Below are positions 5,014 through 36,113 of a stretch of 36,213 bases of DNA, piece after piece. Where the stretch lies: positions 1 through 36,213 of the IMG/VR virus record IMGVR_UViG_3300008448_000289, one strand, 5' to 3'. Below the pieces are notes generated by a model, which was not told where the DNA came from, searched no databases, and was given only the letters and a program-made list of their open reading frames with translations. The DNA comes from a virus. Each line of letters begins with the position of its first letter. The stretch's first letter is position 1. Made by a program: the position numbers and the translations under genes.

Positions 5014-5131
5014 TTTGAGGCAAGGTCTGGCGCGGTCTGGCGAGGTTGGGCAGGGTCTGGCACGGTGCGGTGAGGTAAGGTGAGGTGGGGTGAGGCCGTG
5101 TGAGGTGGGGCTATGTCTGGTGTGGTTTGGC

Positions 5132-5153
5132 TTTTAGGGGGCAAAGAATTTTT
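5132..5153 (+). repeat. Spacer repeat copy 1 within the pentanucleotide array
   Basis: First of three copies identical over 22 nt: four T, AGGGGGCAAAGAA, then at least five T. It separates pentamer blocks A and B. Confidence 0.9.
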
Positions 5154-5258
5154 AAGGCGGGGCAAGGTGAGGTTGGGTCGGGTCGGGTATGGCTCGGCGG
5201 GGTCTGGTGAGGTGAGGTTAGGCGATGCCCGGTGTGGCGAGGCGCGGTAGGGTTTGGT

Positions 5259-5280
5259 TTTTAGGGGGCAAAGAATTTTT
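5259..5280 (+). repeat. Spacer repeat copy 2 within the pentanucleotide array
   Basis: Second copy of the 22-nt core, starting 127 nt after copy 1 and flanked by one extra T on each side. It separates blocks B and C. Confidence 0.9.
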
Positions 5281-5406
5281 TGAGGCGTGGTGCGGTCAGG
5301 CTCGGCGTGGCTCGGTTGGGTGTGGTGAAGTTAGGTAGGGTGGGGTACGGCGTGGCGTGGTGGGGTCGGGCATGGTCGGGTAAGGCGGGGCATGGTGAGG
5401 TTTGGT

Positions 5407-5428
5407 TTTTAGGGGGCAAAGAATTTTT
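5407..5428 (+). repeat. Spacer repeat copy 3 within the pentanucleotide array
   Basis: Third copy of the 22-nt core, starting 148 nt after copy 2. It separates blocks C and D. Block D ends differently, in GGTTTTATTTTTACGAGG, which supplies the ribosome binding site of the gene at 5557. Confidence 0.9.
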
Positions 5429-5556
5429 TAGGTGGGGTCTGGCTATGCGAGGCGTGGTCGGGTTAGGTTAGGTCTGGCAAGGCAGGGTACGGTGTGGCGT
5501 GGCGTGGTCAGGCCGGGTTTGGTTGGGTATGGTTTTATTTTTACGAGGTAACAAGT

Positions 5557-6198: not shown

Positions 6199-6311
6199 TC
6201 AGGTGGATACTGGGTTTATTCAAACGTGCTGACGAGTTTCGCAAGAAAGAATGGGCACATGTGCCGCCCCCTGCATGGGGAGCAAAGCGTGGTGGGAGGG
6301 ATTACTGGTGA
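6195..6311 (+). CDS. Small hypothetical basic protein, 38 residues
   Basis: A short ORF, MIRWILGLFKRADEFRKKEW to the end GGRDYW. It has a textbook ribosome binding site (GCAGGAGG, 5 nt before the ATG), an ATGA overlap with the methyltransferase stop, and its TGA stop overlaps the GTG start of the next gene. The N-terminal WILGLF patch followed by basic residues could touch a membrane. Function unknown. Confidence 0.6.
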   Translation: MIRWILGLFKRADEFRKKEWAHVPPPAWGAKRGGRDYW

Positions 6312-6913
6312 GTGACTATCGCGTAAAAATTAGTGTATCAAATGCGCGTATCAGACGAGCGATGGAAGCAGCGGGATATACATCCATACAGGCCATGTGC
6401 TTAGAACATAAACTGCGGCTCGACATAGTTTATAAGCTGGTCAACATGAAGATGTCACCGCTAGGTAATGACGGAAGGTGGCACTCCACGACGCTAAAAC
6501 TAGCAGATGCTTTAAATGTTTTACCTGACGACCTGTTCAGCGAACGACAAAAGACTGTTACGTTGAAGACCAACGAAGGGCATCGAGACGTAACAGAGTC
6601 AGAACTAGCTGCGATTGCCGCTGAGCAAAATTGGAACGAGCGGCTTGAAGATATGCGGGACAATGACGCGATCAACCAGATCGCTTCAGAAGAGACTGGG
6701 AAAGTGTTGAATGCTGCGATGGAGCATTTACTTACCCCGAAAGAGACAGAAATTATAAAGTGGCGGTACGGTTTTGAAGGTACACGCAAATCACTGGATG
6801 AGATAGGCGCAAAATATAATGTTTCCCGTGAGCGAATAAGACAAATAGAAAACAAAGCACTTAGGAAATTACGAAGGCCGTATGTGCAAAAGTTTTTTGA
6901 AGAAAATACATGA
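6308..6913 (+). CDS. HTH-sigma70 region 4 fusion transcription factor
   Basis: A 201-residue protein from the GTG at 6308, which has GGGAGGG upstream and overlaps the previous stop. Residues 12-78 form an XRE/Cro-like helix-turn-helix (ARIRRAMEAAGYTS... to ...LADALNVLPDDLFSE). Residues 142-190 are a clear sigma70 region 4: LTPKETEIIKWRYG, then the helix-turn-helix SLDEIGAKYNVSRERIRQIE and ALRKLRRP. Regions 1-3 of a sigma factor are absent, so it cannot open promoters alone. It likely binds DNA and the beta-flap or -35 region to redirect host RNA polymerase, perhaps for late genes. It is embedded in a glycan-modification operon. Confidence 0.88.
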   Translation: MSDYRVKISVSNARIRRAMEAAGYTSIQAMCLEHKLRLDIVYKLVNMKMSPLGNDGRWHSTTLKLADALNVLPDDLFSERQKTVTLKTNEGHRDVTESELAAIAAEQNWNERLEDMRDNDAINQIASEETGKVLNAAMEHLLTPKETEIIKWRYGFEGTRKSLDEIGAKYNVSRERIRQIENKALRKLRRPYVQKFFEENT

Positions 6914-20269: not shown

Positions 20270-23200
20270 CTACTCCTCGGGGAACCGGTAGTACTTGTAA
20301 GTCTCCACGAAGTTACGCTTGATAGCGTCCTCGTTGTATTGGATATCGTCCAAGTATTCTTTGCGTTCCTTTGGCGTCAGACTCGGATCACGCTGGATCT
20401 GTTTCTTCATAGTACTGATCTCGCGTAGCTGACCGTTGACAACGCTCTCGTATGCCTCAGTCAAAACGTCGATGTTTGGATTGGCTTCAAGATACCGATC
20501 TAACTGTTCAGGATCTGAGTAGTCACGGAATGTACGATAGGGCCGCGCATGAGACTTGATCCACTCTGACGCTTCGCGGAATTGTGCGGCGTCATAGTTG
20601 GACATTTTACCGATAAAGCGTTTGATGAACGGGATATCTCGTTTGATATCGCTTTCTTTCTGGCCGTTAAGTACCAAAGCCATATTGAAAATGTTCTCGG
20701 CAAGTGCGTTGGGACCATCTGCGTAAGTATTCAAGGCAAAGGCAATCGTGTCCGGCTCCCAGTCAACGTTACCGTTAGTTTCTTCAAGTAAAATTTTAGC
20801 TGCCATGTTGTGCCATTCGGACGGTCTGCTACCACCAGAATAAGCATCAGCATATTTGCCCATTCGTGAGTCATAGATTGGATTGCCGAGGCTATCCATG
20901 TTTACGGTATATTCAAAGAGGGGTCGTGCCGCAGATGGTAAGACGGTACTAACCAACCATGCCGGGAAATGCTCAGTCATACTGATACGAGAGGCTGGCA
21001 GCGGCATGAACGAGTCCAAACCGATCTCAACCATGTTGCTCGCAAAATCCTCAAAGCTCTGATTGCCTGAGAATAGAGCAGCGAACTGCGCTCCCGCAGC
21101 GGGGAATGCACCTGCACCAAATCCCCACGGCATCTGAAGGAAGTTATCTTTACCGTCTTCGCCTTCCAAGAATGGAACCGGTAAGCGCATGTAACGTGTC
21201 CAGCGAGACATACTATCGGTCGCAATTTGGTTGCGCCCTTCGTCATCATCCGGAGCCATCGCCGCTGCCATTGCATATATAAGTGCGCCTGATGTAAAAA
21301 AGATAGGCGCAGCAACAAGGGCGTTCTTACGACGTTGGTTATAGTTCTCAATAAACCTACGGCGGTTCTCATTCTTTTTGTCGATACGGTTCTGAAGTTC
21401 AGCGATTTTATCTGGGTCGGCTTTGGGATTCGCTTCTTCTTTCTGTAGCGCCTCTTCATCGTACTGAGTATCCATCTGCGCCCAGACGGACGGTTCAGCA
21501 TTTTTAATTGCGTCCTCAGCGGAAGTAGTCGCGGTACGTATTACTTTGATAAAGTTGACGGCACCGGTCGCAGCAGGTTTGAAGAACATGTAAAACGCGG
21601 ACATCTTTCTGCCCCACGTACCAATCTTACGGAAGTTCATCAGTTCAAGAGCGAAGGTTGCTGCCTCACGCTTGAGATCAGCCATGATGTCTGGATTATT
21701 GACATCAACATTCTGTGCCTTAGCTTTGGCAACATTATCCTTGAGCCTTGTGGTGTATGCCGCCACACGACTAGTGTATTCAAACGTCGCACCGAAGACA
21801 TCAAACCAGCGACTCAAAGCCTCCTTGGTACGAATAATTTTACTCGGACCAACTCGCTTCATGAGTGCTTCGACTTGATCTTCGACGTTGAACCCTTGCG
21901 GATAAAGTGCACTGCCACCGTACTCGATAAAATCTAAGGCATCTCGGTAGAAACCATCCTTAGACATCAATCTTTCCAACGCCGCAGAATCTCTGGAAGT
22001 CGTTACACGAGACAGGTTGAATGACTTTGCCATCAATCCGGTACGGAGTACGTTACCGATAAGCTCAGCAGCGTACTTACTACCTTGACCAAATCCTTCC
22101 TTAAACGTAATCAACCCGAAATTGGTCATGCTATTGACCAAAAAATCCATCGGGGGGAAGTTCAAGTTAAAACGGGTATGGAATTGCCCAATCAGACTAT
22201 TGAAATCAGCGAGGCGTCTGAGTACAGGGTTAGCTTTTTCGTACGGCGTCTTGATAGATTCAAGCTGCCTTTCATCCGTCAGTTCATAGACATGGACATC
22301 GCCGTTAGGCTGGTAATCCAAAATCTTGTTCTTGCCTTTAAGAACACTTAAATCAAAGTTGGGGTCATTACGCTCATCAAACGTAACAACTTCAGGATCT
22401 TTCGATTTGACCTTGATGAATCCCTGCTTGATGTTGTTAACAAGGACAGGCAATAAGTCCTTTCGCCCTGCTTGAGAAGCAGCTACATAAGCGTTTGCAA
22501 ACGATTGCAAGATGGGATCTTCAAAGTCAGTTTTACGCCCTTCCCATGACTGCTCTACTTCCGCCAGTTCTCCTGACAATCTTTGGGAACTGTAGTCAAG
22601 ATCTTGATCAGATCCCGGCAGACCTTGGAACGGCACGTAAGTATCGCCCCATTGATAGGACGCAACGATGCTATCAACTTGAGGTGCCCAGTAGTTTGCT
22701 TCCTTACTAAGCTCGCGTTGAAGTTCTTGTACGCGGTTCAACTTCGCACGTACGTCGTCAATTAGCGGCTTCAAGGGACCACTATTGTTGTACTCGTCAA
22801 TCTTAGCCTGCAACGCTTCAGGCGTATACAACGGCTCATCCTTTGTTCCGCGTGGAATGACATCGTAGATCTTGTCATTGATGTCAATGGACATCTTCTT
22901 GCCACGGGTACCAACAGGGCTATACCCAGTCTCAGACTTGAACTTATTGACGAGCACACGCATGACATCTTGAATCTGCGCTGCTTGATCAGGCGGCAAC
23001 TTGCTACGTTGTTTTTCAAGGAAGGCACGATAATCAGCCGGGGTCATATCTGCTGTACCAGCGGGTACAAACGGAAGCCCTGCTGAGGGGATCTTAATAT
23101 CGTTCCGCAACGGAACTTCACGCAGATACTTGGTTTCTCTGCGCTTCATCTCGTGCTGTGCGATGAAGATCTTACTGAGCCTATTTATAGCCGCCTTCAG

Positions 23201-26200
23201 GCTAAGTCCAGAATTGAGAGCAAACTCCTTGATAGCATCCTGTACTTCACGGATAGCCGGATCAACTCGTCTGACAATAATGTAATCAGTGATGTTGGGC
23301 GCACGAGCAATCTCAGATGCAATGTTATTACGATCTGGTCCCGTAATAATTAACGTGCCCTGCAACCCCTTTTCATCATCCATCGTGTCAATCACGATGT
23401 GCTTATTCTGGAACTTGCGTACAAGATCTTTAAACAAAGTCTTGTTTTGGAATTGCTCAGAGAGTTTCTTGATGAGACTAGAGATACCGCCACCACCAAG
23501 TGATGCAGGGGCAAAGTCTTCAAGATCGTGCGGCTTCTTGCTTGGCTTCTGACCGGGCTTCTTGCTCGGCTTTTTGCCGGGTTGAACAGATAAATACACC
23601 GGAACTTCAGAAAGCATTTCCTCGGTTCGATATTTACCGTCCGCCTTGGCGAGGCTATCCAGTGCGCGAATGACAGCAGCATCAGACTTTAGGCCAAAGA
23701 TGTCTTTAGCTTTTTCGATGAACTCACGTAACCATCGCTTCAACTGCCCGACAATAGTCGGGGAAAGACCATAACGACCAGCTACGATACGCGACCCGTT
23801 GACTGCCCAGAACTCAGATGGGTTGACATACTGATAGTGCGACTTAGGAACATCACCGTTTTTGATGGCACTAAGAGCTTTGTCATATTCAGCCTTCTTG
23901 TTCGCTGCACCCGTTAGGTAGTGATAATTAACGATAGCGTTGAAAAAGGCTTTTTCAGCTTCAGTCTTCGCGTTTTTCTGAGCCTTTAACAACTGCCGTG
24001 TATATGCTTTGTGTATACCCGCACGGATATTAGTCGGCATCAACCGTTCAAGGTGGTGCAGGATTTCATGCGTAGCAGTATTGGTATCACCCACGCTAGA
24101 AAAAACGGTGGCAATACGGCTGGCAGAATCATAAAACCCAGCAACTCCTTTCATGCCTTCCGGCTGCTGTCGTATTGAAATACCTAAGTCGGCAACAAGC
24201 AGAGGATTTTGCCGTACAAACCACTCAGCAAGATCGGCGCTTTCATCGGACAACGTGCCAATACGTTTGGCATTCAGTAAACGCTCACGAATGTACTCAG
24301 CACCTCGTACGCGAGGGCGAACCATACGTTCTTTCTGAGTTTTAACCAGCAGATCACCAGCACGGTTAGCAAAGTCGTCCGCTGTCAATTCACCCGCATC
24401 GTATTCGGCTTTTGCTTTGCTTAGCTCACGCCGCAAAGACGGTGCCCGCTCCTGAGTCTGCTCAGGTATGGCAGGTGTAGCTTCGTTCAGTTCATCGAGG
24501 CTGAGGAAGCGTTGTTCGGTAGGCTCTAATGCAGCGGGGCGTGGCGCTTCTCCTTCATCAAGTCGTTCAGGAGCACGGCTAACAGGCTCCAGTCCTGCAA
24601 CGGGAGGTTCTGTAACTTCTGGTCCTGCGGGTCCAACTCGTGGTACAGGCAGTCCAGTGCCTCCTGCAACTGCTCCAGTGACAGCTTCGCTAACACCTGT
24701 TGGTACTGGTTCACTGGGCACCTCCGCCTTGGGAGCCTTGGGTTCAATAACATTCAGTGCAGCGAGATACCCCTTTTGAAATCCGGGTATTTCAAGCTCA
24801 TAAGCACCCTGTACGCTACCGGTTTCAGCAATAGCATTCATCGCTTGCTTCACAATTTGTGAAGCCTGTTCTTCGCGCATAGGTTGGGCTTTCTTTACCG
24901 CAGCCTCCATCTTCATGATGGGGTACGTATCGCCCATATCTTCAATTTTAAAGACCGGAACTTCCTTAGCGCCTAACTCACGTAACGCTTCAAGCCTGTG
25001 CTGACCTTCTATGACGTTATTATTTTGGTCTACAATGATGCGACTGAAATAGCCATCATCACTTGCAATCTGTTTAGCAAGCTCATCAACGCGCTTACGT
25101 TCACCTGACTGTTCCGAAACACCGCCCTTGAGTTGCTCAATCGGTACAGTCTCGTTACCAATCATGCGCGGATAATTAAAATTGGCGTCGGCTACTTCAT
25201 AAACATCATCGGTCGGCGGACGGATATCCTTCCCTGCCAACACATCAACCTGTACCGCTTCTGGCGCTGGTATTTCTGGCAACGCAGGGGCTTCAACAGC
25301 CGGTGCCTCAACAGGCGCAGCTAAGACTTCACGCAACGCATTCAGCGTGGTCTCTTTGTTGGCGTTCTTATCAAGTTCAATGCCGAGTTGCTTAGCAAGG
25401 CTACGCGCACGGAACAGTGCAATCGGCTTACCTTCATCAGCAAGCTTGAGTAGTTGCTGAGCGTCGTCTACTACGGCAGGAGGCAAGCCCTCGGTGACTT
25501 CCGGAGGTGCTTCAATAGCCTCGATACCGCGCAGCGCGGGGGCAAGCTCACTAGGCGGAGGCGGGGCTTCTCTAGCACGGACAGGTTCAACACCCGGTTC
25601 AATCGGCGCTGGTTCTTCTGGAAGTGGTTCTTCCGGCGGCGGTTCAAACCCACCCTTTTGGTCACGTTCTCTAACAGCAAGATAAGTAGCAGCAGCAATC
25701 GGACCACCACTGACAGCCGTAGCAATGCCCGTTAAAGCCTGACGACGAGCCTGAATTGCTAGTTTTTCCTCAAAGGTTTCAGCCGCTTCAAGTTCTTGAT
25801 CTAATTCATTTGCATAAGCATTGACAGACTGACCGAACGTAGCAATCTGCTCAGTAGTCATGTCGCCTGCGACAAACTTTAGAAGCTGTCTCTTAGCACC
25901 GTCTAAGGTCTTAACTCCAAGAGCGTCAATCAAAAACTTGGTCGGCAAAAGTTCCGTGCCGACTTCGATGGCAGCATCAACACCAGCATAACGTGCAGCT
26001 TCAGGTGCGGTCAGCCCTTCAGCACGAGCCTCGCCGTATGACTCAGCACCAGTCTGAAGTCCAGCAGAAGCCAGAGCAGGTAGCGGATTGCGTGTAGCAA
26101 TCGAGGCAACAATACCCGGCAAGTTACGAACAAGGCTCTCACCGCCACCACGAATACCCTGTTCAAGCAAAGTCAGATCATCCGGGGTCGCTTCCGCAAC

Positions 26201-26707
26201 GCGCTTTTCACTGGCCTTGCGCTCTTCCTTCAGGCGTTCCGTAGCCTGCTTCTTAACCGCTTTTAGTTGCTCGTTACTCGTAATGCCATAGACCTGTTCC
26301 CAGTAAGCACGAAGACCGCCGACGCGATCCACATCTTCATAAGATACGCCGGGAGGCAGTTGGTCGATGGAGTTGGGTAACTGGTCAATGATGGACTGGC
26401 GGACGCCGCCCACACCCTGCTTAGCACCTTCGGCAAGCTGAGTGCCGAAACCCTTGGTCAAACCCTTCCCGCTCAGGCTATACCAAGCCCGACCTTCTTC
26501 CTCGGGGGCTTCTTCAGGTTTAGTCTCAGCCGGTTTCGGTGCCGGTGGCGTAACAGGTTTTGCAGCCTCAGCCCGCTGAGCCGGAGTCAGCAATTGATCA
26601 ACGTCATATCCTGCACTGCCAAGCCGATTAAGAAACTCTTCCCTTGAGATATTATCAGGGACGTTCCTAATCAACGTGCCATTCGGCATCCGAACATTGC
26701 GGGGCAT
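20270..26707 (-). CDS. Giant phage polyvalent protein (ParB-like, zincin-like and LPD38-like parts)
   Basis: 2145 residues. The N-terminus (RNVPDNISREEFLNRLGSAG) resembles the lead-in of virion proteins. Then a Pro-rich linker; a Gly/Ala-rich helical part (about 190-260); another Pro/Glu linker; a ParB-like domain near 500-600 with VIEGQHRLEALRELGAKEVP (about 560-580); a metallopeptidase-like HEILHHLE near 879 (HExxH); a Lys/Pro linker near 1045-1060; and a long C-terminal part (about 1560-2145) resembling LPD38, with a hydrophobic segment near 1792-1815. Polyvalent proteins are thought to be injected with the DNA and to act on host defences or genome processing. Last gene of the minus-strand operon. 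Confidence 0.8.
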   Translation of the reverse strand: MPRNVRMPNGTLIRNVPDNISREEFLNRLGSAGYDVDQLLTPAQRAEAAKPVTPPAPKPAETKPEEAPEEEGRAWYSLSGKGLTKGFGTQLAEGAKQGVGGVRQSIIDQLPNSIDQLPPGVSYEDVDRVGGLRAYWEQVYGITSNEQLKAVKKQATERLKEERKASEKRVAEATPDDLTLLEQGIRGGGESLVRNLPGIVASIATRNPLPALASAGLQTGAESYGEARAEGLTAPEAARYAGVDAAIEVGTELLPTKFLIDALGVKTLDGAKRQLLKFVAGDMTTEQIATFGQSVNAYANELDQELEAAETFEEKLAIQARRQALTGIATAVSGGPIAAATYLAVRERDQKGGFEPPPEEPLPEEPAPIEPGVEPVRAREAPPPPSELAPALRGIEAIEAPPEVTEGLPPAVVDDAQQLLKLADEGKPIALFRARSLAKQLGIELDKNANKETTLNALREVLAAPVEAPAVEAPALPEIPAPEAVQVDVLAGKDIRPPTDDVYEVADANFNYPRMIGNETVPIEQLKGGVSEQSGERKRVDELAKQIASDDGYFSRIIVDQNNNVIEGQHRLEALRELGAKEVPVFKIEDMGDTYPIMKMEAAVKKAQPMREEQASQIVKQAMNAIAETGSVQGAYELEIPGFQKGYLAALNVIEPKAPKAEVPSEPVPTGVSEAVTGAVAGGTGLPVPRVGPAGPEVTEPPVAGLEPVSRAPERLDEGEAPRPAALEPTEQRFLSLDELNEATPAIPEQTQERAPSLRRELSKAKAEYDAGELTADDFANRAGDLLVKTQKERMVRPRVRGAEYIRERLLNAKRIGTLSDESADLAEWFVRQNPLLVADLGISIRQQPEGMKGVAGFYDSASRIATVFSSVGDTNTATHEILHHLERLMPTNIRAGIHKAYTRQLLKAQKNAKTEAEKAFFNAIVNYHYLTGAANKKAEYDKALSAIKNGDVPKSHYQYVNPSEFWAVNGSRIVAGRYGLSPTIVGQLKRWLREFIEKAKDIFGLKSDAAVIRALDSLAKADGKYRTEEMLSEVPVYLSVQPGKKPSKKPGQKPSKKPHDLEDFAPASLGGGGISSLIKKLSEQFQNKTLFKDLVRKFQNKHIVIDTMDDEKGLQGTLIITGPDRNNIASEIARAPNITDYIIVRRVDPAIREVQDAIKEFALNSGLSLKAAINRLSKIFIAQHEMKRRETKYLREVPLRNDIKIPSAGLPFVPAGTADMTPADYRAFLEKQRSKLPPDQAAQIQDVMRVLVNKFKSETGYSPVGTRGKKMSIDINDKIYDVIPRGTKDEPLYTPEALQAKIDEYNNSGPLKPLIDDVRAKLNRVQELQRELSKEANYWAPQVDSIVASYQWGDTYVPFQGLPGSDQDLDYSSQRLSGELAEVEQSWEGRKTDFEDPILQSFANAYVAASQAGRKDLLPVLVNNIKQGFIKVKSKDPEVVTFDERNDPNFDLSVLKGKNKILDYQPNGDVHVYELTDERQLESIKTPYEKANPVLRRLADFNSLIGQFHTRFNLNFPPMDFLVNSMTNFGLITFKEGFGQGSKYAAELIGNVLRTGLMAKSFNLSRVTTSRDSAALERLMSKDGFYRDALDFIEYGGSALYPQGFNVEDQVEALMKRVGPSKIIRTKEALSRWFDVFGATFEYTSRVAAYTTRLKDNVAKAKAQNVDVNNPDIMADLKREAATFALELMNFRKIGTWGRKMSAFYMFFKPAATGAVNFIKVIRTATTSAEDAIKNAEPSVWAQMDTQYDEEALQKEEANPKADPDKIAELQNRIDKKNENRRRFIENYNQRRKNALVAAPIFFTSGALIYAMAAAMAPDDDEGRNQIATDSMSRWTRYMRLPVPFLEGEDGKDNFLQMPWGFGAGAFPAAGAQFAALFSGNQSFEDFASNMVEIGLDSFMPLPASRISMTEHFPAWLVSTVLPSAARPLFEYTVNMDSLGNPIYDSRMGKYADAYSGGSRPSEWHNMAAKILLEETNGNVDWEPDTIAFALNTYADGPNALAENIFNMALVLNGQKESDIKRDIPFIKRFIGKMSNYDAAQFREASEWIKSHARPYRTFRDYSDPEQLDRYLEANPNIDVLTEAYESVVNGQLREISTMKKQIQRDPSLTPKERKEYLDDIQYNEDAIKRNFVETYKYYRFPEE

Positions 26708-26710
26708 TAA

Positions 26711-28129
26711 CTAACCCTGTGGAAAGGCCGAAGGAAATTCTATCTCATCTATACCGCCACCAATTTGAAATAGCGATTTAATATCTTCCTTCTCACGCTG
26801 GAGAATCTGATCTATTGCGGTTTGAGCAGCCTTTTTCTGCTCGGCAGTCGCATTCTTATTCCGCAACACTTTCTTAGCATCCCGATAGTCTTCAGGTGCA
26901 TTGAATGCGTTCTTATCCCAATCCTTTTGCTTATCAAGAAGTTTGGCTGTGACGTATCTATCTAAATTAGCAGCGCGTTCAGCCGCCCGAGCCGTTGCAC
27001 GCTTTTCGTCACCAAGCTCTTGGATGCGGGTACGCGCTGTTGCTGCACCCTCGGAGTACCGCAGACGCTCCATAGCCAACTCGTTCTCGCCCAGCGTTTT
27101 AGCCAGAGCATTAACCTCGCCACGAGCCTGATTAGCCAGAGCACGGGCTTCCTTGTCGTACCCAGCCTGACGCAGTTCTTCAGCCTGCTGGAGGTCCAAC
27201 ATCCGGTCTTCGTAACGCTGACGTAATTCACGCTCACGCTGCTGAAGCTCCATCATGGCCGGAATGCCACGGGCGAACCCAGCACCAATCGAACCCAATC
27301 CTGTTGCACCGGGACGCGAAGCAGCCTCCATAATCTGGGCACCGATCTGAGCCAACGCCAAACCACGTGTCCGCTTACTCTCAGGCTCGATCTCTTCGCC
27401 ACGCTTCTGCAACCGCTCACGCATGGCCTGAGCCGCTTTGCCTTCCCCTCTTGCTTCTGCCTCGGCACGAAGTTGAGCGGCGTATCCCGCAACCGGACGA
27501 TTCGCACGTTCTAGCGCGGTTTCGTATTGCTTCGATATGGGAATGATCTGGTCATTTGAACGTTTGCCAGTTTCTTCACGGACTGTCGGACCTTCTGCCC
27601 GTCGTGTCTTAGCCTGCTTAATCTGAGGATCAAGGTAGCGACGCACGGCGTTCTGTTGATTGGGCGACATCGTTTCAAATTCAGGTACAAACTGTTTGAT
27701 GATGTCCAGTTCTTCCGCATTACCCAACAGATCGCCATTAGCCAACGCGACCACGCCACCACCCGCAAACTTCGGGTACTCCATACGGCCAGCATCAATC
27801 GCACCAAGTCCACGATCCATCGGCTGCGGAGCCGGGGGAGGTGCCTGCATACCGGCAATACCGCCTTGCTGACGCTGCATTTGTTGCTGCTGTTCAGCCA
27901 TGTTCAACTGATCTTTAATTGTCGGCGGCGTCTGCGGGGGCTGAACCTGTTGCTGCTTCAGTCGCTGGAACTGATTCATCATGGCGTACAGATCCGTCAG
28001 CGGAGCCACGCCCTGCGTAGCCATACTCTTGACGTACTGAATAGCCTGATCAGGCGGCATACCCTTGGACATGGCCTGCTGAAGCGAAGCCATCATTGCA
28101 CGACCCGTGCCGCTAACTGGACCGATCAT
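26711..28129 (-). CDS. Ejection/virion-type coiled-coil protein
   Basis: 472 residues. The N-terminal part is rich in Met, Gln and Pro (QQQQMQRQQGG), then comes KFAGGGVVALANG (about 122-134), and residues 180-430 are long charged helices (for example RAEAEARGEGKAAQAMRERLQ), consistent with coiled coil. The G-rich motif and the position beside the polyvalent protein suggest a virion-associated or ejected protein. The specific role is not visible. It is followed by the polyvalent gene with a 3-nt gap. Confidence 0.6.
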   Translation of the reverse strand: MIGPVSGTGRAMMASLQQAMSKGMPPDQAIQYVKSMATQGVAPLTDLYAMMNQFQRLKQQQVQPPQTPPTIKDQLNMAEQQQQMQRQQGGIAGMQAPPPAPQPMDRGLGAIDAGRMEYPKFAGGGVVALANGDLLGNAEELDIIKQFVPEFETMSPNQQNAVRRYLDPQIKQAKTRRAEGPTVREETGKRSNDQIIPISKQYETALERANRPVAGYAAQLRAEAEARGEGKAAQAMRERLQKRGEEIEPESKRTRGLALAQIGAQIMEAASRPGATGLGSIGAGFARGIPAMMELQQRERELRQRYEDRMLDLQQAEELRQAGYDKEARALANQARGEVNALAKTLGENELAMERLRYSEGAATARTRIQELGDEKRATARAAERAANLDRYVTAKLLDKQKDWDKNAFNAPEDYRDAKKVLRNKNATAEQKKAAQTAIDQILQREKEDIKSLFQIGGGIDEIEFPSAFPQG

Positions 28130-28132
28130 TGT

Positions 28133-29632
28133 TTATTTCCCCGTGGTTGAGCCGAGACCACCAAACAGACCGCCCAAGCCTAATCCAGCACCGACAATCT
28201 GACCGAACATACTACCCGGTGCTTGATACATCGTCTGCGTCTGACCTGTTGCCGGGAGACCACGCAGGATACCCGACATGAACTCTGCTTGCTGATACGG
28301 CAGGCGCTGCTGGTTAAGGAAGTCTTGATACTGCTGATTGAGCAACTCTTGACCAAACGCTTGCTGCTGTCCGCCAGCACCCAGTTGAGCAGAGGTAATG
28401 CCCATCTGCTGCTGATACTCCTGCTGACCCAAGTTACCCAACATACCCGCCGCAGCCAACTGCTGCTGAAGACCCTGCATACCCAAGCCAGCCCCAAATT
28501 GACGGGACTGTTCGGCAAGGTTCGCACCCGACAGACCGTACTGGGCACGCTGCATTGCATTCTGCTGCGAGAACTGATTGGCCTGAGCCAACTGAGCCAG
28601 AGCCTGTTGCTGAGCCTGAAGCTGCGCGGCCTGATTCATCTGCTGTGCCTGCAAGCCCTGACCCGCACCAAACTGCTGCTGATTGATCAATGCCTGAAGG
28701 TTAGTCTGACCCGCCTGCTGTTGAGCAGCCTGATTAGCCAATGCAGCCTGAAGACCCGACTGAGTACCAAGCTGCTGAACGCCAAGCAGTGCGGCCAGAT
28801 TTTGCTGACCCGTGGTGAGTCCCGCTTGTTGGTTAGCCAGTCCAGCCTGAAGCATACGAGCACGGTCAGCGTTGTACTGAGCCTGTGCCTGCTGGAATGC
28901 ACTCTGGCTACCCTGTGCCTGAATGTCGCCTAACTGAGAAGCAAGGTTACGTCGTGCTTCAGACTCCAGAATGGCCTCACGAGTGCCGCCCGATGCACCG
29001 GCACGAACACCGGCTGCTTTGAGTGAAGGGAGTTGGCGGGCATAATCACGGACAGCAGCTTGTTTCTGTCGGTCAACAACTTCCTGCATGTACGGCGACA
29101 TGTATTGAGAAGCCGCACCAAGACCAAACTGATCCGCACTAACGCGCTCAGCCGGACCCATCTGATACTGCTGCAACGCGCCAATACCGACACGCTCCGG
29201 GCCAGCCATTTGATACGAAGTACCCGGCGCAGCTTGAGCGCGCTCAAAGGTAGTCCCCATCCGCTCAAACTGGGGAGATTCGTAGAACTGACGTTCTGCT
29301 GCGGGGGTGTATTGCCCTAGTCTGGCAGCATCAATACCTGCAAGTCCGGCAAGACCTGTAGCCTGAGTAAGTTGATCTGAAGGCCGCATCCCCGCAATGC
29401 TTCTAAATGCCTGCTCTTGCAGGGGGCTAAATCCTTCCAGACGCTGGATAGAATCCATGACTGGTTTGCCTTGAGCATCCAGTACAGGCTTACCTTCAGC
29501 ATCCAATCTTGGACGCGCATACGGCTGATAGCCCTGCTGCGACAGAACCTGAGCCTGACCTACTAGCTGAAGGATTGGGTCTCGCAGCCAGCTAGGAATG
29601 TTGGTTTGAATTTGTTCAGTAGGAGTAGCCAT
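28133..29632 (-). CDS. Gln/Ala-rich repetitive virion protein
   Basis: 499 residues. A short N-terminal doublet DAEGKPVLDAQGKPVMD is followed by an ordinary region and then, from about 230 to 440, a Gln/Ala/Leu-rich repetitive helical stretch with units such as LANQQAGLTTGQQNL and LANQAAQQQAGQTNL. It ends in a Gly-rich hydrophobic tail (GQIVGAGLGLGGLFGGLG). The layout fits long helical ejection or tail-needle-like proteins of podoviruses; the exact role is unproven. It is separated from its neighbours by 3 and 12 nt. Confidence 0.6.
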   Translation of the reverse strand: MATPTEQIQTNIPSWLRDPILQLVGQAQVLSQQGYQPYARPRLDAEGKPVLDAQGKPVMDSIQRLEGFSPLQEQAFRSIAGMRPSDQLTQATGLAGLAGIDAARLGQYTPAAERQFYESPQFERMGTTFERAQAAPGTSYQMAGPERVGIGALQQYQMGPAERVSADQFGLGAASQYMSPYMQEVVDRQKQAAVRDYARQLPSLKAAGVRAGASGGTREAILESEARRNLASQLGDIQAQGSQSAFQQAQAQYNADRARMLQAGLANQQAGLTTGQQNLAALLGVQQLGTQSGLQAALANQAAQQQAGQTNLQALINQQQFGAGQGLQAQQMNQAAQLQAQQQALAQLAQANQFSQQNAMQRAQYGLSGANLAEQSRQFGAGLGMQGLQQQLAAAGMLGNLGQQEYQQQMGITSAQLGAGGQQQAFGQELLNQQYQDFLNQQRLPYQQAEFMSGILRGLPATGQTQTMYQAPGSMFGQIVGAGLGLGGLFGGLGSTTGK

Positions 29633-29644
29633 TATCGCTCCCGA

Positions 29645-32600
29645 TTAAGCAGGTAACAGTCGGTCAGTTTTCACAGCAGGGGCTTGCTTAGTTTTGCCCG
29701 TACGTGCCTTCCGAACCTGCGCCATCATTTGATACAGTTTTTTGGCTCCTGCCTTAGTGGAGCCATTACCGAGATGCGATACCACATCAGCCGGGATGAC
29801 GAACTCGCCATCAGCCAACGCAGCACGTTGTACACTCTTGCCACGAATCACAGCAGGGATATCGTCAGACATTCCATCGCCGGGACCGTCTAGCAACTTA
29901 CCGCCAGCCTTGTACTCAGGAAGGCTACCAAGTCCGCCAGCAGCAAAGCCAAAGTTGTAATCTTCACCGATAGCCCCGCCATCAGCAAACTGCATTACAT
30001 CCCCATACGGATTCTGGGCTTGCATGAAATCGGCAAGAGCAGCGGGGTCCATACTCGGTCCCATGCCTTGAGTATTAGCTTGCTGAGTCTGCTGAGTAGT
30101 GGCAGGGGGAGCACCAGCATAAACAGGTCTTTCACTGACAATTTTAAATTTCTTGTCGCCCTTGACCTGCGCGTTACTGATCGGCTTGCCCTGCATAAAG
30201 TTATGGATCAGATCCGTCATCATGAAGTCTTGGATGCGACGAGCATCTTCGTTTTGCGGACCTGATCCCATCGAGTTCAGCCACGGCTGTACGACCTGTC
30301 GATACATGACATTAGCATCTGCATCTTTGGGAACAACGCCATTCTTCACAGCATTGTTGATGACCTGCGTCATGTCGTACACAAAGTCTTCGTTGCCCGT
30401 ACGTCCGTACTTCTCTTGACCAGCAAATTCGTTTTTGTTGGTGCGGTAGAAATTGATAAAGCCTTGAGCAAGTTCTTCAGGCGGAGCAGCGCCTAACCCA
30501 CGACCTTTATCAACCGCGTCCCAATAATTACGCAGGGCTACATCACCGTACTCTTTGGTGTTGACAAGAGAAGCACCAATAGCAGCAACAGCCGCCGCTG
30601 CCAACGCAGTGACGGGACCACCAAATTGAGCAGCGGTCATAGCCGCATTAAACGCGGCTCGCCCTTCTTTACCGGATTCAATCGCCTTAGCGGTATTGTA
30701 TGCCCCGAGCGCAGCCGTTGCTGCACCTGTCGGAGTTCCAAGACTGGAGAAGTCCACACCTGCTTTTAAATTACCAAGACTGAAACCTGCTTTAGGATCA
30801 GTCAGCGCCCAGTTTTTGAATGCATCAGCATACTCAGTCGGCATTCTTTGTAGTGCAGCAGATATTCCTTCGGTGCCGCCCATCTGTCCGGCTTTCACTA
30901 ATGCTTGGAAAGCAGGCATACCGATCTTGGAGATCAACATACTTTGCTGGAGACTTTCGCCAGCCGTACCGCCACCGGTAGTGGTAGTAGTATCTCCGCC
31001 ACCCGAGGTATCACCGCCGCCACCACCCGGAGGAGTTGGAGTATACGGGCTTCTTACTGGGGCAGTAAAAGCCATGAATTCGGGATTCTTCGCCCGGCGA
31101 TTTAATTCAGCCACGTAGTCCATCGTCGGCTTGGTATCAACCGGCGGCTTGGGCGGAGCATTGACCATCTCCATATATCGCTGCCGTTGATCTGCAAACG
31201 GATTCTCAGGAGGCAAAATCGCTGGGGGTGATGGCTTAGGTTGCGGGAGAGTCAGCAACGGATTCTCAAAACGAACATCCGAGTTATCTCGGTTTGGATC
31301 AACCACCGCCGGGTCTTCATATTTCGGTGCCGGATCAAATACTGCACCGCCGTCAGCAAACCGCTCTTCACCCGTAAACGGGTCAACCTTCGTATCGTAA
31401 CCAGACAACACCTCGCGGGGCTGCGGCACGTTCGACAGGTACTGTGGCGAGTAGTTGGCCTTGACAACCGTGGAAAGCGGGTAGTTTTGGTTCGGATGCG
31501 GGTATGCCATCGGCAGGTTCATATCCTGACCAGATGCCTGCACAGACCCACCAGCGGCGTAACCCGGTGCCAATTCATACGGGTTGTAGGGTACAAGACC
31601 TTTTTTGGTTCTCTTGTAGTACGTTCCCGGCAAGAAGTAACCGTACTCTTTACCGTACCCATACATCGGGTTAAAGCCGCCCGGTATATACATCGTGTCA
31701 TCGCCGTAAGGACTATCTGACGGCATCTTGTACTCAGGCGTAAAGGCGTCTGCTACACCCGCAAATGTGGCGCTTCTGGACAAACTCCTACCAAAGTCAG
31801 ACTCAAAACCGCCACCGAGCCGGTCGATGAATGTGCTACGAGCCTGCGGGGATTTGAACAACGAGGTAATACCCTCGCCTATACCTCGAAGCCCCGTATT
31901 AGCGGCGGCATCAGGAGCCATATAAGCAATGTTTGCTGCGCGTCCTGCGGCTAAATCTGCGGCTGTGGGAGCACCCTTGAATGCGTTGGCCGACTTGAAG
32001 AAATCAAGTCCATCCGAAGAGGGAGGAGGCGCAATTTTGATAGGTATCTGACCACCCATACCAGAAGCCACATCTGGCGGACCCATCAAATCTGCCGGGA
32101 CAGTCGGATTAACTACAGGCGTGGCACCCACCGTCTGCTTGGCAGCTTCAATAGCCTTATTTGTTTTGGCTACCTCTTCAGCAGAAACACGGGGAGCGGC
32201 CTCCGTCAAGGATGCGCCTTGCAGGGCTTGGGCGATATTGGCCCCGCTGTACGCACCCAGACCCGCCATCAAACCTTTTTGCAAGTCGCCTTCAATGAGG
32301 CCAGTAACTCCGCCAACCAACAGACCCGTGCCGATAGCCTGATTACCGAACCCAATAGTCTTGGCAACACCAGCCAAAGCCGGTCCAATAACCGGAATGC
32401 TGGGCAGGATCGCCCCAGCGATCATCGGCAGAATCTTCTTGAGGAACGAGAACTGGGGTTCGCCCGTCACTGGGTCATACAGATCCCGCTCGTTGGCACC
32501 GTAGGCCATAGCAAGTTGTTGCAATCCCGCCACTTCACGGGGGGTCATCTTGACCCGCATTACGTCCGAGTCAGCATACGGAGACGCAACCAAGGAGCCT

Positions 32601-32647
32601 AACCCGGCCTGAGATGGATTCATGTATTGCGGGTCGTTGTTGTACAT
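29645..32647 (-). CDS. Large ejection/internal virion-type protein
   Basis: 1000 residues. Hydrophobic Gly/Ala segments lie near 72-135 (ILPMIAGAILPSIPVIGPAL; GTGLLVGGVTGLI) and again near 665-700 (AALAAAAVAAIGASL-like), fitting proteins that enter membranes during DNA ejection. Repeated motifs YAAGGSV, FADGGAV, FADGGAI and FAAGGLG are present. The C-terminal 90 residues (GPGDGMSDDIPAVIRGK, then ALADGEFVIPADVVSHLGNG, AGAKKLYQMM) match a domain I recognise at the end of many phage virion proteins. A GGGGGGAG ribosome binding site precedes it. Confidence 0.7.
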   Translation of the reverse strand: MYNNDPQYMNPSQAGLGSLVASPYADSDVMRVKMTPREVAGLQQLAMAYGANERDLYDPVTGEPQFSFLKKILPMIAGAILPSIPVIGPALAGVAKTIGFGNQAIGTGLLVGGVTGLIEGDLQKGLMAGLGAYSGANIAQALQGASLTEAAPRVSAEEVAKTNKAIEAAKQTVGATPVVNPTVPADLMGPPDVASGMGGQIPIKIAPPPSSDGLDFFKSANAFKGAPTAADLAAGRAANIAYMAPDAAANTGLRGIGEGITSLFKSPQARSTFIDRLGGGFESDFGRSLSRSATFAGVADAFTPEYKMPSDSPYGDDTMYIPGGFNPMYGYGKEYGYFLPGTYYKRTKKGLVPYNPYELAPGYAAGGSVQASGQDMNLPMAYPHPNQNYPLSTVVKANYSPQYLSNVPQPREVLSGYDTKVDPFTGEERFADGGAVFDPAPKYEDPAVVDPNRDNSDVRFENPLLTLPQPKPSPPAILPPENPFADQRQRYMEMVNAPPKPPVDTKPTMDYVAELNRRAKNPEFMAFTAPVRSPYTPTPPGGGGGDTSGGGDTTTTTGGGTAGESLQQSMLISKIGMPAFQALVKAGQMGGTEGISAALQRMPTEYADAFKNWALTDPKAGFSLGNLKAGVDFSSLGTPTGAATAALGAYNTAKAIESGKEGRAAFNAAMTAAQFGGPVTALAAAAVAAIGASLVNTKEYGDVALRNYWDAVDKGRGLGAAPPEELAQGFINFYRTNKNEFAGQEKYGRTGNEDFVYDMTQVINNAVKNGVVPKDADANVMYRQVVQPWLNSMGSGPQNEDARRIQDFMMTDLIHNFMQGKPISNAQVKGDKKFKIVSERPVYAGAPPATTQQTQQANTQGMGPSMDPAALADFMQAQNPYGDVMQFADGGAIGEDYNFGFAAGGLGSLPEYKAGGKLLDGPGDGMSDDIPAVIRGKSVQRAALADGEFVIPADVVSHLGNGSTKAGAKKLYQMMAQVRKARTGKTKQAPAVKTDRLLPA

Positions 32648-32686: not shown

Positions 32687-33301
32687 TCAGGTAGAGACAT
32701 TCGACACCCACGTAACTGTGATAATAACTGACGGGATCTCGGGAATGTTCCCCGAAGCGGGGGCGGCAAGCAGGATTACGTTTGTATCCGGTGACTGCCA
32801 AGCAATCTCAAAATAGTCCCCATCAGACATCGTAATGACCCAGTTCCAAGCAGCAACGATTTCGTTGTTGGGGCCGTCTATAACTATTTTAGTGGCGGAG
32901 TACGCCACGTTGTTCCCGTTGACCCGTAACCATATAAATACGTCCGTTGCTCCACCGCCAGTTTTGTCTAGCTGTGCCGAAAACTGAATGTTGTATACGG
33001 CGGTTTCCGAAACGTATACCCGGTTCGTATCCTTGCTAACGCTAAATACAGTTTCTTGGTTGTCGTAGGTGCTATTAACCTTCATCAAGTTAACAGTATT
33101 GGCAACCGGGTTCGTCTGCGTAGTCGTATCGTAAAAAGATCCGTGCGGCTTGGGTGCGTTGAACGAGTTCGATACGAGATTGAAGAAAAGGCGCAGGATG
33201 TTAGAGAACTGATCCTGATAACGTTGTTCATACGCATTCGGAGCCACCGGTAGGTTCGGGGCCACAAGGTTACGAACTTTTTGTAACCGCGTATTACTCA
33301 T
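32687..33301 (-). CDS. C1q/TNF-like jelly-roll fibre-head protein
   Basis: 204 residues. A helical N-terminal stalk (YEQRYQDQFSNILRLFFNLV, about 23-45) leads to a beta-rich domain with TNRVYVSETAVYNIQFSAQL, DVFIWLRVNGNN and SDGDYFEIAWQS, the pattern of C1q-like trimeric heads in phage neck and tail fibres. A receptor- or glycan-binding role is likely. It overlaps the neck protein gene by 4 nt and precedes the ejection protein by 39 nt. Confidence 0.75.
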   Translation of the reverse strand: MSNTRLQKVRNLVAPNLPVAPNAYEQRYQDQFSNILRLFFNLVSNSFNAPKPHGSFYDTTTQTNPVANTVNLMKVNSTYDNQETVFSVSKDTNRVYVSETAVYNIQFSAQLDKTGGGATDVFIWLRVNGNNVAYSATKIVIDGPNNEIVAAWNWVITMSDGDYFEIAWQSPDTNVILLAAPASGNIPEIPSVIITVTWVSNVST

Positions 33302-35625
33302 CTACGACCATCCGGACGTACGTCGATACGCATCATACCCATCTGCCACGCAACGCCAAGATCAACCGAATCAAGTCGGAAGGACATCTGACGGCCACGG
33401 ACACGGGTATATACCTGACCGGTATACTGCTCAATCGGTATCTTCGAAGTCTCCTGAACAGTCGGACTGTCAGCAGGGGCGTAATTAGTGCCTGAGTTCT
33501 GACGAGCCTTGACTGTCAAAGTTACGCTTGGGGTATTCGACGATGAGTTGTTGAACGTCAGGTCAGGCAGGATGCGCCACACGTACCCAAAAGACTGCCC
33601 GTCTTGAATATCAAAATCTGACGACTCGATGTAAGCAGCAATAGGACGGATTTCGATCAAGGACCGATCATCATTACCGTACTCATGGTTCATGATCTGA
33701 TTGGGTATCTCGTAGGTTACCCGCGAGTACTGAATATGGCTTGCCGCAGTCGTGCCGTTATAACCACGAACACATCCGGTCAGAGAAGTAGACGTAATAC
33801 CTGTGTAGTAAATTTGCTCCGAATCAATTGTTACAATACCCGGGACCGGATAAGTGGTAGCATTTAGCAGAGTAATATTGGTAACAGACGAGTTTATTGC
33901 CGAACTCAAATAAGAAGTCTGTAAGCTAAAAGCAGCCATTGGATACTGACGCAGCGGCGAATCCAGCCAGTAACTGCGGGGCAAATTACCGTAGTACCAA
34001 ATCTGTTCTAGGTGGTTATAAATCACGTATCGGTCGTTAGTGAGGCTATTGGACGACGGGTAAAACCACCAAATTTCGTTATATCCTTGGTTAGCTCCAC
34101 AAACAACTTGAGAGATCTGCTCTGGATTTATGTCAGTGAAGATGTACTGACGAAGGGTGCAAGGCAGCGTCTCCACACGACCTGAATACATATAGAACTT
34201 ATCCGTACCCATCCAGTACGTCACGTTGTTAATTGTGATCGCCGCATTCGGGGAGATGATGGAGATATTGTCCATCAGCAAGTTGATACCCCACACATAC
34301 GGAGGGCCGAGGTACTGCATAGAGAACAGCGCGGCGTCGGTCCAAATCAGGATTTCCTGACGAGTGTCCGTAGAAGCAACAACGTACGAACCGTACGAAA
34401 GCCGGGTCTCACCTGACTGATTCAGGGTTGATGGCACCCACTCAAACGGATTATCAGCATCTGACCAGCGAATCAAAAGCGGGTCAAAAGTCTCACTAAA
34501 GTTGGTTGGATTGTATGGGTTAGATCCGAAGGCAATACAGAAGTTACCGGAGCTAGATGTAGCCACCTGATAAGTCGTGTTTGGTACGTGTTGCCCTGCG
34601 TAACTAAACGTGTAGCTACCCGCCGAACCTGACGTAGTTGCGGCTGAGATGGGTACAGAAGTACTACCCAAGACATAAGCAGTCGTGACGTAAGTCCCCG
34701 CCGGAATCCCAGTACCCGTAACGACAGCGCCAGTATCAATCCCGGTGGGGTCCGAAACAGTTATTGTAGTTACACCGCTTAAAAACGTAGCCGCCGTAGT
34801 GTGCTTGACCTGCGTATTGGCGTATGAGTTGAGCGTTACCGCCCGTGCCCAAGTCGAAGTGTCTTTGACCCAATAATAAATCGGACCGCCGCGAGGGTTG
34901 ATCAATAGGTTTTCTTGATCGTTATCTTGTGACCAAAGACGTAGTTGGTTAGAAATAGCAGACCCAACACCCCATCCGCCGAAGCCCCACGGACCGTAAC
35001 CCCAACCAAGACCACTAGAGTAGGTGGCACTACCCGCGTCGATTTCCAAAGCAGCCGTAACTGCACTGCCACCACCTGTGCCTGTACCTGTTGCAGCAGT
35101 AGAACCTACTATAGCGAATGTAGTGCTAGATGGGGTCTCAATAACTTCAAACGAACCAATACCCAACGCAGCCGAATACAGCGTGATGCCGTTAACTGTG
35201 ACAGGAGTTCCGGCAGGGCTATTAGTAAATGTAACCCACGTACCTATTGTCAGATCATGGTTAGCCGAAGTTGTGACGATAACTTTATAGCTACCGTTCG
35301 TCGTGGCAAACGGATCAGTGGGTAATGTAACTGTAGAAGCCAGCGGGGTAATGTCGTGGTAGATACCTAAATACTCAACATAAAACTTCTGGTTGGTACC
35401 CAGACCTAAAAGGTTTTCGGTAACAAGTGTGATCCAATTGAACAGCGACCGGCAGGTACCAACAAACGTATTGGTCGGGGCGGTTTGGTTGATCCAACCG
35501 CCGATCTTTTCTGCATACCCCGAACGGAACCGAACCTTGTCGCAAGCAAAGTAGCCACCTTCGTTAGCGTAGCTAGTCGATTCCTTGTTAACCCCCGGAC
35601 GGAGCGTAAGTTTTTGTAACGGCAT
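33298..35625 (-). CDS. Neck / DNA stabilisation protein (P22 gp10-like type)
   Basis: 775 residues. The opening MPLQKLTLRPGVNKESTSYA and FACDKVRFRSGYAEKIGGW, plus the Gly/Trp-rich GWGYGPWGFGGWGVG (about 205-220), match a family of phage head-tail stabilisation proteins with a beta-propeller. An Ig-like or adhesin-like insertion sits near 285-345 (VSDPTGIDTGAVVTGTGIPA). This protein would close the portal and attach tail parts after packaging. The rest is beta-rich. Minus strand, overlapping the fibre and lysozyme genes. Confidence 0.72.
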   Translation of the reverse strand: MPLQKLTLRPGVNKESTSYANEGGYFACDKVRFRSGYAEKIGGWINQTAPTNTFVGTCRSLFNWITLVTENLLGLGTNQKFYVEYLGIYHDITPLASTVTLPTDPFATTNGSYKVIVTTSANHDLTIGTWVTFTNSPAGTPVTVNGITLYSAALGIGSFEVIETPSSTTFAIVGSTAATGTGTGGGSAVTAALEIDAGSATYSSGLGWGYGPWGFGGWGVGSAISNQLRLWSQDNDQENLLINPRGGPIYYWVKDTSTWARAVTLNSYANTQVKHTTAATFLSGVTTITVSDPTGIDTGAVVTGTGIPAGTYVTTAYVLGSTSVPISAATTSGSAGSYTFSYAGQHVPNTTYQVATSSSGNFCIAFGSNPYNPTNFSETFDPLLIRWSDADNPFEWVPSTLNQSGETRLSYGSYVVASTDTRQEILIWTDAALFSMQYLGPPYVWGINLLMDNISIISPNAAITINNVTYWMGTDKFYMYSGRVETLPCTLRQYIFTDINPEQISQVVCGANQGYNEIWWFYPSSNSLTNDRYVIYNHLEQIWYYGNLPRSYWLDSPLRQYPMAAFSLQTSYLSSAINSSVTNITLLNATTYPVPGIVTIDSEQIYYTGITSTSLTGCVRGYNGTTAASHIQYSRVTYEIPNQIMNHEYGNDDRSLIEIRPIAAYIESSDFDIQDGQSFGYVWRILPDLTFNNSSSNTPSVTLTVKARQNSGTNYAPADSPTVQETSKIPIEQYTGQVYTRVRGRQMSFRLDSVDLGVAWQMGMMRIDVRPDGRR

Positions 35626-36113
35626 TAGCGTACTCCAGACAGGTACAACGCCCGTTCATCATTGCGACGTTTGACCAGACCCGGCAGCACTCGACCACCG
35701 GCCTTAGTCCATTTCAAGAATTCATCTGCTGCCTCGTCAAAGTCTCCCCGGTTTGTCTTCATCCGGAGAGAAGATCTCTGAAGATTTCCCAGTCCCACGT
35801 TGAAGGCAAAACTAACGAGAGAATCAAAGACTCCTTGGCGACCAGAAGCAGCAGGGCAAAGTCGAAGAACACCACGCTCAAACCGGCGAAGATCCTCAGC
35901 AAGAATAGAATCCACCTCTCCCATAGAGATGACGCGATTCCAACCCTCGGGTATCGGTAGATTCTTGCGCTCATGGAATGGGACGTTTGCGTGTGTTGAG
36001 TCAATTACATGGCCGACACCGATAGTCCACAAGAGGGCAGGGCAGCGGTAAGGTTTATTCCTTACCCCCTCATGGTGTTTGATCATGTCAATGGCGGCAG
36101 CGGAGACTTTCAT
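35625..36113 (-). CDS. GH24 phage lysozyme (endolysin)
   Basis: 162 residues. The catalytic pattern E-8aa-(D/C)-5aa-T of T4-type lysozymes is met by E15, C24 and T30 in HHEGVRNKPYRCPALLWTIGVGH. The C-terminal part has FAFNVGLGNLQRSSL and a basic end. There is no signal or SAR segment, so it should depend on a holin to reach the peptidoglycan. It begins in an ATGA overlap with the holin-like gene upstream. Confidence 0.93.
   Translation of the reverse strand: MKVSAAAIDMIKHHEGVRNKPYRCPALLWTIGVGHVIDSTHANVPFHERKNLPIPEGWNRVISMGEVDSILAEDLRRFERGVLRLCPAASGRQGVFDSLVSFAFNVGLGNLQRSSLRMKTNRGDFDEAADEFLKWTKAGGRVLPGLVKRRNDERALYLSGVR

Follow-up and report, generated by a model that had tools for sequence, protein, structure and literature searches.

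Organization of the giant protein gene

We analyzed a 36,213-nucleotide stretch of viral DNA (IMG/VR record IMGVR_UViG_3300008448_000289, positions 1 to 36,213; hereafter, the window) and focused on the gene at positions 20,270 to 26,707, which encodes a giant protein of 2145 amino acids (aa). Read on the minus strand, this span is a single intact open reading frame (ORF) with 2145 codons; stop codons abound on the plus strand. A model's reading of the sequence alone (the original prediction) had described a polyvalent protein at the end of a virion operon, in which ParB-like, zincin-like and LPD38-like parts are joined by linkers and provide several potential anti-host activities. From its N-terminus to its C-terminus, the protein consists of a short tag, an alanine-rich module, a first linker, a ParB/sulfiredoxin-fold domain, a second linker, a zincin-like domain, a helical middle region, and a C-terminal core that contains LPD38 (Table 1). 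The two linkers, rich in proline, glutamate and alanine (P/E/A-rich), agree with the proposed arrangement; that prediction gave no strand and included neither the tag nor the alanine-rich module, nor the bulk of the core. Several unrelated domains in one polypeptide and a gene lying among virion and late genes are features of polyvalent proteins, an already known class (Iyer et al. 2017, PMC5512222), of which the giant protein, which has both features, is a further member with an unusually clear layout. Its probable place is inside the virus head, from which it would enter the host along with the DNA.

Table 1. Features of the giant protein and its operon, with window coordinates. pLDDT, predicted local distance difference test score; pTM, predicted template modeling score.
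Feature	Position	Strand	Basis
Giant polyvalent protein gene, 2145 aa (P0001)	20270..26707	-	ATG to stop
N-terminal tag, residues 1-31 (MPRNVRMPNGTLIRNVPDNISREEFLNRLGS)	26615..26707	-	Profile match E 4.8e-8, P0001 itself a seed
N-terminal alanine-rich module ("Nmem"), residues 101-335	25703..26407	-	tblastn 41% to Vibrio phage MZH0603, E 4e-36
P/E/A-rich linker, residues 346-490	25238..25672	-	Composition 17% P, 15% E, 16% A
ParB/sulfiredoxin-fold domain (predicted), residues 511-593, EGQHR at 567-571	24929..25177	-	PHROG and fold match
P/E/A-rich linker, residues 660-772	24392..24730	-	Composition
Zincin-like metallopeptidase domain, residues 794-1032; HEILHH 880-885; NPSEFWAVN 962-970	23612..24328	-	Conserved motif
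Helical middle region, residues 1041-1343	22679..23587	-	Recognized only in five close relatives
C-terminal core, residues 1344-2145	20273..22678	-	AlphaFold2 pLDDT 75, pTM 0.68; homologous to JC1 gp69
Hydrophobic helix in core, residues 1797-1815	21263..21319	-	Kyte-Doolittle 1.81
LPD38 domain, residues 1832-2028	20624..21214	-	Pfam PF18857 E 2.8e-13, 50.8 bits vs curated cut-off 27
472-aa protein, adjoining the giant gene upstream in the operon	26711..28129	-	ORF
499-aa DNA-ejection-like protein	28133..29632	-	PHROG 4287 E 1.4e-4
1000-aa late-operon protein	29645..32647	-	ORF
775-aa virion structural protein	33298..35625	-	PHROG 3287 E 2.1e-56
Lysozyme	35625..36113	-	Pfam PF00959 E 2e-35

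The C-terminal core is homologous to a virion protein

The LPD38-like part of the original prediction was confirmed by a Pfam match well above the curated cut-off. LPD38 is the sole name that Pfam and NCBIfam returned for the giant protein, the rows for the zincin, ParB and module regions being weak or at chance level. It belongs to a larger C-terminal core of approximately 800 residues and was matched in all 40 aligned core sequences. A literature search on LPD38 listed eight papers, two of them on phages (PMC5512222 and PMC9144972). The core also contains a hydrophobic helix, whose mean hydropathy is at least 1.2 in 34 of the 40. The predicted core structure has 55 matches at E ≤ 0.001 among the predicted viral proteins of BFVD, including a protein of Escherichia phage PTXU04; against the PDB, the best fold match had an E-value of 0.55 and the best VIA-align score was a Z of 7.2 over 96 residues, neither of which is meaningful. 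Sequence searches of the PDB with the giant protein and with the zincin, core and module profiles also returned nothing meaningful.

In gp69 of Burkholderia phage JC1, a Bcep22-type DarB-like protein of 4515 residues, the core profile matched residues 3775-4501 with an E-value of 1.2e-112, so that a full-length homologous core lies at the C-terminus of that protein as well. According to the JC1 report (PMC9144972), gp69 was found in CsCl-purified virions (51 unique peptides, 15.61% coverage) and is encoded by the final gene of the virion module, as is the giant protein; gp69 differs in its size and in its other cargo, which comprises LT-like, LPD3 and helicase-like parts. The zincin family of the giant protein was not detected in JC1 gp69 by profile (E 0.54). 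Because the core is homologous to a protein of the virion, its class can be placed in the virion by homology.

The zincin-like motif is nearly constant among giants

The HEILHH motif named in the original prediction occurs once in the giant protein. In an alignment of 46 family members, H880, E881, H884, E887, S964, E965, W967, A968, V969 and N970 are invariant (46/46), and E965 is a candidate third metal ligand, judging from the alignment. An HExxH motif arises in 10 of 2000 shuffles of the giant protein. Among giants of at least 1500 aa that were not recruited through the zincin, HExxH is present in 59 of the 62 that carry the alanine-rich module only (shuffling predicts 2.5), in 10 of 11 with both module and core, and in 4 of 6 with the core only. 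The residues that flank the motif differ between giant groups, which suggests that different zincin families are probably involved. Since HExxH is near-constant whatever the cargo, the zincin appears to be nearly obligatory, and it is more likely a part for processing or entry than an optional anti-host weapon. Iyer et al. reached a similar general view from their domain network, and processing by the metallopeptidase has been proposed for polyvalent proteins (PMC5512222). In one Burkholderiales assembly, a zincin giant (L197:7501-13539) is split over two frames of 602 and 1410 codons, which reflects either a frameshift or an assembly error.

Parts are exchanged among relatives

We surveyed domains in 178 of 186 loci, excluding eight copies of this genome, and examined 3258 distinct ORFs of at least 150 aa. 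Profile matches were found for the module (96), the zincin (75), the core (70), the middle region (5) and the ParB region (1), in 175 proteins in total; counts of domain co-occurrence are biased because the loci were recruited by single domains. Forty non-redundant proteins combine zincin and core, and all are laid out as a variable front, the zincin, 181-310 residues, the core and the end. The core stops 2-29 residues before the end of the frame, and between 67 and 2750 residues precede the zincin; some of these frames are open at the 5' end and one (L139) at the 3' end. In matches that span zincin and core, the giant protein shares 36-48% identity with its five closest relatives (L109-L113). 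When L109, L111, L112 and L113 are compared with one another, their C-terminal parts are 73-82% identical and their fronts 36-67%. A scan of five other relatives identified cargo that includes ART-PolyVal, GNAT, DNA methylase and strawberry-notch helicase parts, and a scan of nine relatives returned a MORN repeat in one and no match of any kind in the other eight. Most proteins of at least 1500 aa from a scan based on the core bear another HExxH, though not of this zincin family. Thus, parts swap among relatives and the HExxH motif is nearly always kept.

The predicted ParB/sulfiredoxin-fold domain is best read as cargo

The EGQHRLEAL motif on which the ParB-like assignment was based is found once (residues 567-575), and PHROG ParB-like families match residues 536-593 with a best E-value of 2.7e-6. 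An AlphaFold2 model of residues 490-1343 (mean pLDDT 63.8) shows a beta-alpha domain at residues 511-593, which VIA-align superimposed on sulfiredoxin (6ky4; Z 9.0, root-mean-square deviation 2.8, 76 residues aligned), CTP-binding ParB (7bnk; Z 8.9, 72 aligned) and a free serine kinase (5x0b; Z 8.6, 83 aligned). Among the matches listed for this model, those of ParB/sulfiredoxin type were the sole notable ones. For the domain of one close relative, the top NCBIfam model was SerK (E 2.3e-4), far under the cut-off. These predictions, together with a GxHR-type motif, support membership of residues 511-593 in the ParB/sulfiredoxin superfamily, in line with the original prediction. The fold fits sulfiredoxin, CTP-binding ParB and free serine kinase about equally, so it gives nuclease activity no particular support. 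The DdrB-type ParB family of polyvalent proteins, for which we take Pfam to hold a model, gave no Pfam row at E ≤ 1 for the giant protein.

ParB-like cassettes with a GxHR-type motif are present in 21 of the 175 surveyed proteins, at varying positions. The iterated ParB profile behind this count was built from a small set and has optimistic E-values; it drifted, and 7 of its 30 matches at E ≤ 1e-5 lacked the motif and were excluded. The domain is best read as optional cargo.

One alternative holds that the zincin and the ParB/sulfiredoxin-fold domain are both weapons directed at the host: the protease would break down proteins of the host's defences, and the ParB-like domain would be a nuclease. 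Host-protein targeting and DNase action are named as possibilities by Iyer et al. (PMC5512222), and relatives bear other plausible effectors in the form of the ART-PolyVal, GNAT, DNA methylase and strawberry-notch helicase parts. Nevertheless, we consider this alternative unlikely, given that HExxH is near-constant beside unrelated cargo, unlike the ParB-like cassettes, and that the predicted fold suits ParB no better than sulfiredoxin or serine kinase. The original prediction was borne out as to a polyvalent protein, its ParB-like, zincin-like and LPD38 parts and its place in a late operon, but the several anti-host activities go beyond the evidence, since LPD38 is a piece of the core with no known activity, the zincin is nearly universal and the activity of the ParB/sulfiredoxin-fold domain is ambiguous.

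The N-terminal tag and the alanine-rich module

The tag profile was built from 12 N-termini picked by eye (those of the giant protein and 11 relatives) and iterated, so 12 of its 29 matches are seeds. These 29 matches, among 18,263 ORFs of at least 60 aa from the loci and the window, are all zincin-bearing giants; 17 are non-seeds, several of them close to seeds. The tag stands at the start of the frame in 28 of the 29. It is internal in L169, where the motif occurs twice (residues 208 and 245) inside a 2310-residue ORF. From its sequence, the tag would adopt a beta-beta-alpha shape. The first 30 residues of P1 DarB are reported to direct a reporter to the capsid (PMC9024508), and the tag may be a functional analog of that capsid-targeting N-terminus; the analogy is one of function. 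A literature search that was not aimed at the tag sequence found no publication on it.

The alanine-rich module recurs near the N-terminus of giants of Vibrio and Caulobacter phages, at about 32-47% identity, and has 91 relatives in IMG/VR. It has no Pfam match and a weak match to PHROG 9880, a family with no assigned function. The module may act on the membrane.

Comparison with known systems

With the polyvalent proteins described in the available part of Iyer et al. (PMC5512222), the giant protein shares unrelated domains in one chain, a zincin-like metallopeptidase, a ParB-type domain, LPD38 and virion-gene neighbors; the tag, the alanine-rich module and the LPD38 core of approximately 800 aa were not met in that part of the paper. 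The DarB-like protein of Erwinia phage PEp14 shares the zincin domain (about 270 aa at 36% identity) but is 4914 aa long and has no match to the core profile. The giants of Vibrio phages MZH0603 and PS25B.1 and of Caulobacter phage RapA share the alanine-rich module and a similar operon position; they differ in having no meaningful core match, and the HExxH flanks of the two Vibrio proteins are unlike those of the giant protein.

T7 gp16 and the N4 virion RNA polymerase are large co-ejected proteins and, like the giant protein, they are encoded at the end of the virion gene set, as seen from gene order. Profile and hhalign comparisons do not support either one as a homolog: with single-sequence templates, hhalign probabilities were 0.2% for both core and module against T7 gp16, and 1.7% for the core and 2.8% for the zincin against the N4 polymerase.

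A proposed route from virion to host

Taken jointly, these results lead us to read the giant protein, with a probability of roughly 0.6, as a polyvalent protein that is packaged in the virion and ejected along with the phage DNA, its core, tag, module, zincin and cargo each having a separate role. The C-terminal core, with its conserved hydrophobic helix and LPD38, would be the virion or ejection part, and the tag would assist recruitment of the protein to the head. On entry, the alanine-rich module would contact the membrane. The zincin, just ahead of the core, would cleave the chain, either while it is still in the head or following entry, and so release the N-terminal cargo in the host, here a putative nucleotide-binding domain of ParB/sulfiredoxin fold.

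Several observations weigh against this reading. The stretch ahead of HExxH is modeled at a pLDDT below 50, none of the 46 zincin-family members has a Pfam zincin match, and no metallopeptidase is among the fold matches listed for the 490-1343 model, which does not exclude one; the zincin-like part of the original prediction holds in its HExxH and invariant E965, and its fold is not confirmed. The zincin family was found in none of 16 non-self loci in the core-based scan, which also argues against a single fixed chassis. Of the 65 zincin giants whose N-terminal end is complete, only 25 have a recognizable tag. Among eight additional loci taken from bacterial assemblies (693 ORFs), one has a strong tag match (L196, E 2e-8) and another a weak one at the N-terminus (L195, E 0.14); two more matches, one internal to L191 (E 0.15) and one to a 114-aa ORF in L193 (E 0.02), are likely due to chance. 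Hydropathy of the core helix falls below 1.2 in 6 of the 40 aligned sequences. No sequence similarity to T7 gp16 or the N4 polymerase was detected. Finally, for this phage, the place of the giant protein in the virion is one assigned by homology.

A second alternative is that the zincin works at entry on the cell envelope, or as a maturation protease on virion proteins, rather than on its own cargo. This would be consistent with the near-universal presence of HExxH and with the position in a virion operon; the P/E/A-rich linkers between modules suit self-processing, and we regard this alternative as improbable. It is very improbable that the giant protein is made late to act in the producing cell and is no virion component, a view opposed by the homology of the core to JC1 gp69, which is present in virions, and by the operon position.

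A broader and quite tentative idea is that the tag of approximately 31 residues is a transferable head-packaging signal and that the zincin and LPD38 core form a general delivery-and-release chassis, making a natural plug-in system that injects varied cargo freed by a built-in protease. Phage giants that accompany the DNA into the cell are still poorly characterized. Should tag, zincin and core be constant delivery parts and the rest cargo, it would be clear which parts to examine for packaging, release and host effect, and new cargo domains could be found between tag and zincin. The most useful new points are the tag, which lends itself best to testing, the full length of the core together with its relationship to a protein shown to be in virions, and the HExxH motif, which is nearly universal.

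Operon setting and other observations

The late operon on the minus strand runs from the lysozyme gene through those for the 775-, 204-, 1000-, 499- and 472-aa proteins to the giant gene, which is terminal and convergent with a primase-like gene on the opposite strand. This is the position at the end of the virion operon that had been predicted, after lysozyme, virion-structural and DNA-ejection-like genes. A near-identical record of 46,756 bases (99.6-99.9% identity to the window over the stretches compared; 100% for the giant protein) extends the operon with terminase-, portal-, scaffold- and capsid-like ORFs, which were named by size and order only. Among core-bearing giants with at least 1.5 kb of downstream sequence, the next ORF, by a crude choice of ORF, lies on the opposite strand in 49 of 62 and on the same strand in 13, indicating that the last position in the operon is common. 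The right end of the near-identical record holds a partial ORF (L008:11264-11755) that may encode a 2-oxoglutarate oxygenase.

The 1000-aa protein retains its last ~100 residues in 31 loci of other phages (34-85% identity), and most of the rest is not kept; by sequence, its C-terminal ~115 aa are a conserved C-terminal module.

A non-coding-looking array at 5019-5535 of the window consists of 77 pentamers of the form GGYNN in six runs of 6-17 units and is striking. Its third position is always T (49) or C (28), and the longest run in 200 shuffles was 6. The blocks are separated by three copies of (T)TTTTAGGGGGCAAAGAATTTTT, at 5132, 5258 and 5406. A sigma-factor-like gene (6251-6913; PHROG 351, E 1.8e-18) lies a few hundred bases from the array, and GGNNN runs that resemble it occur in L120, L123 and L136.

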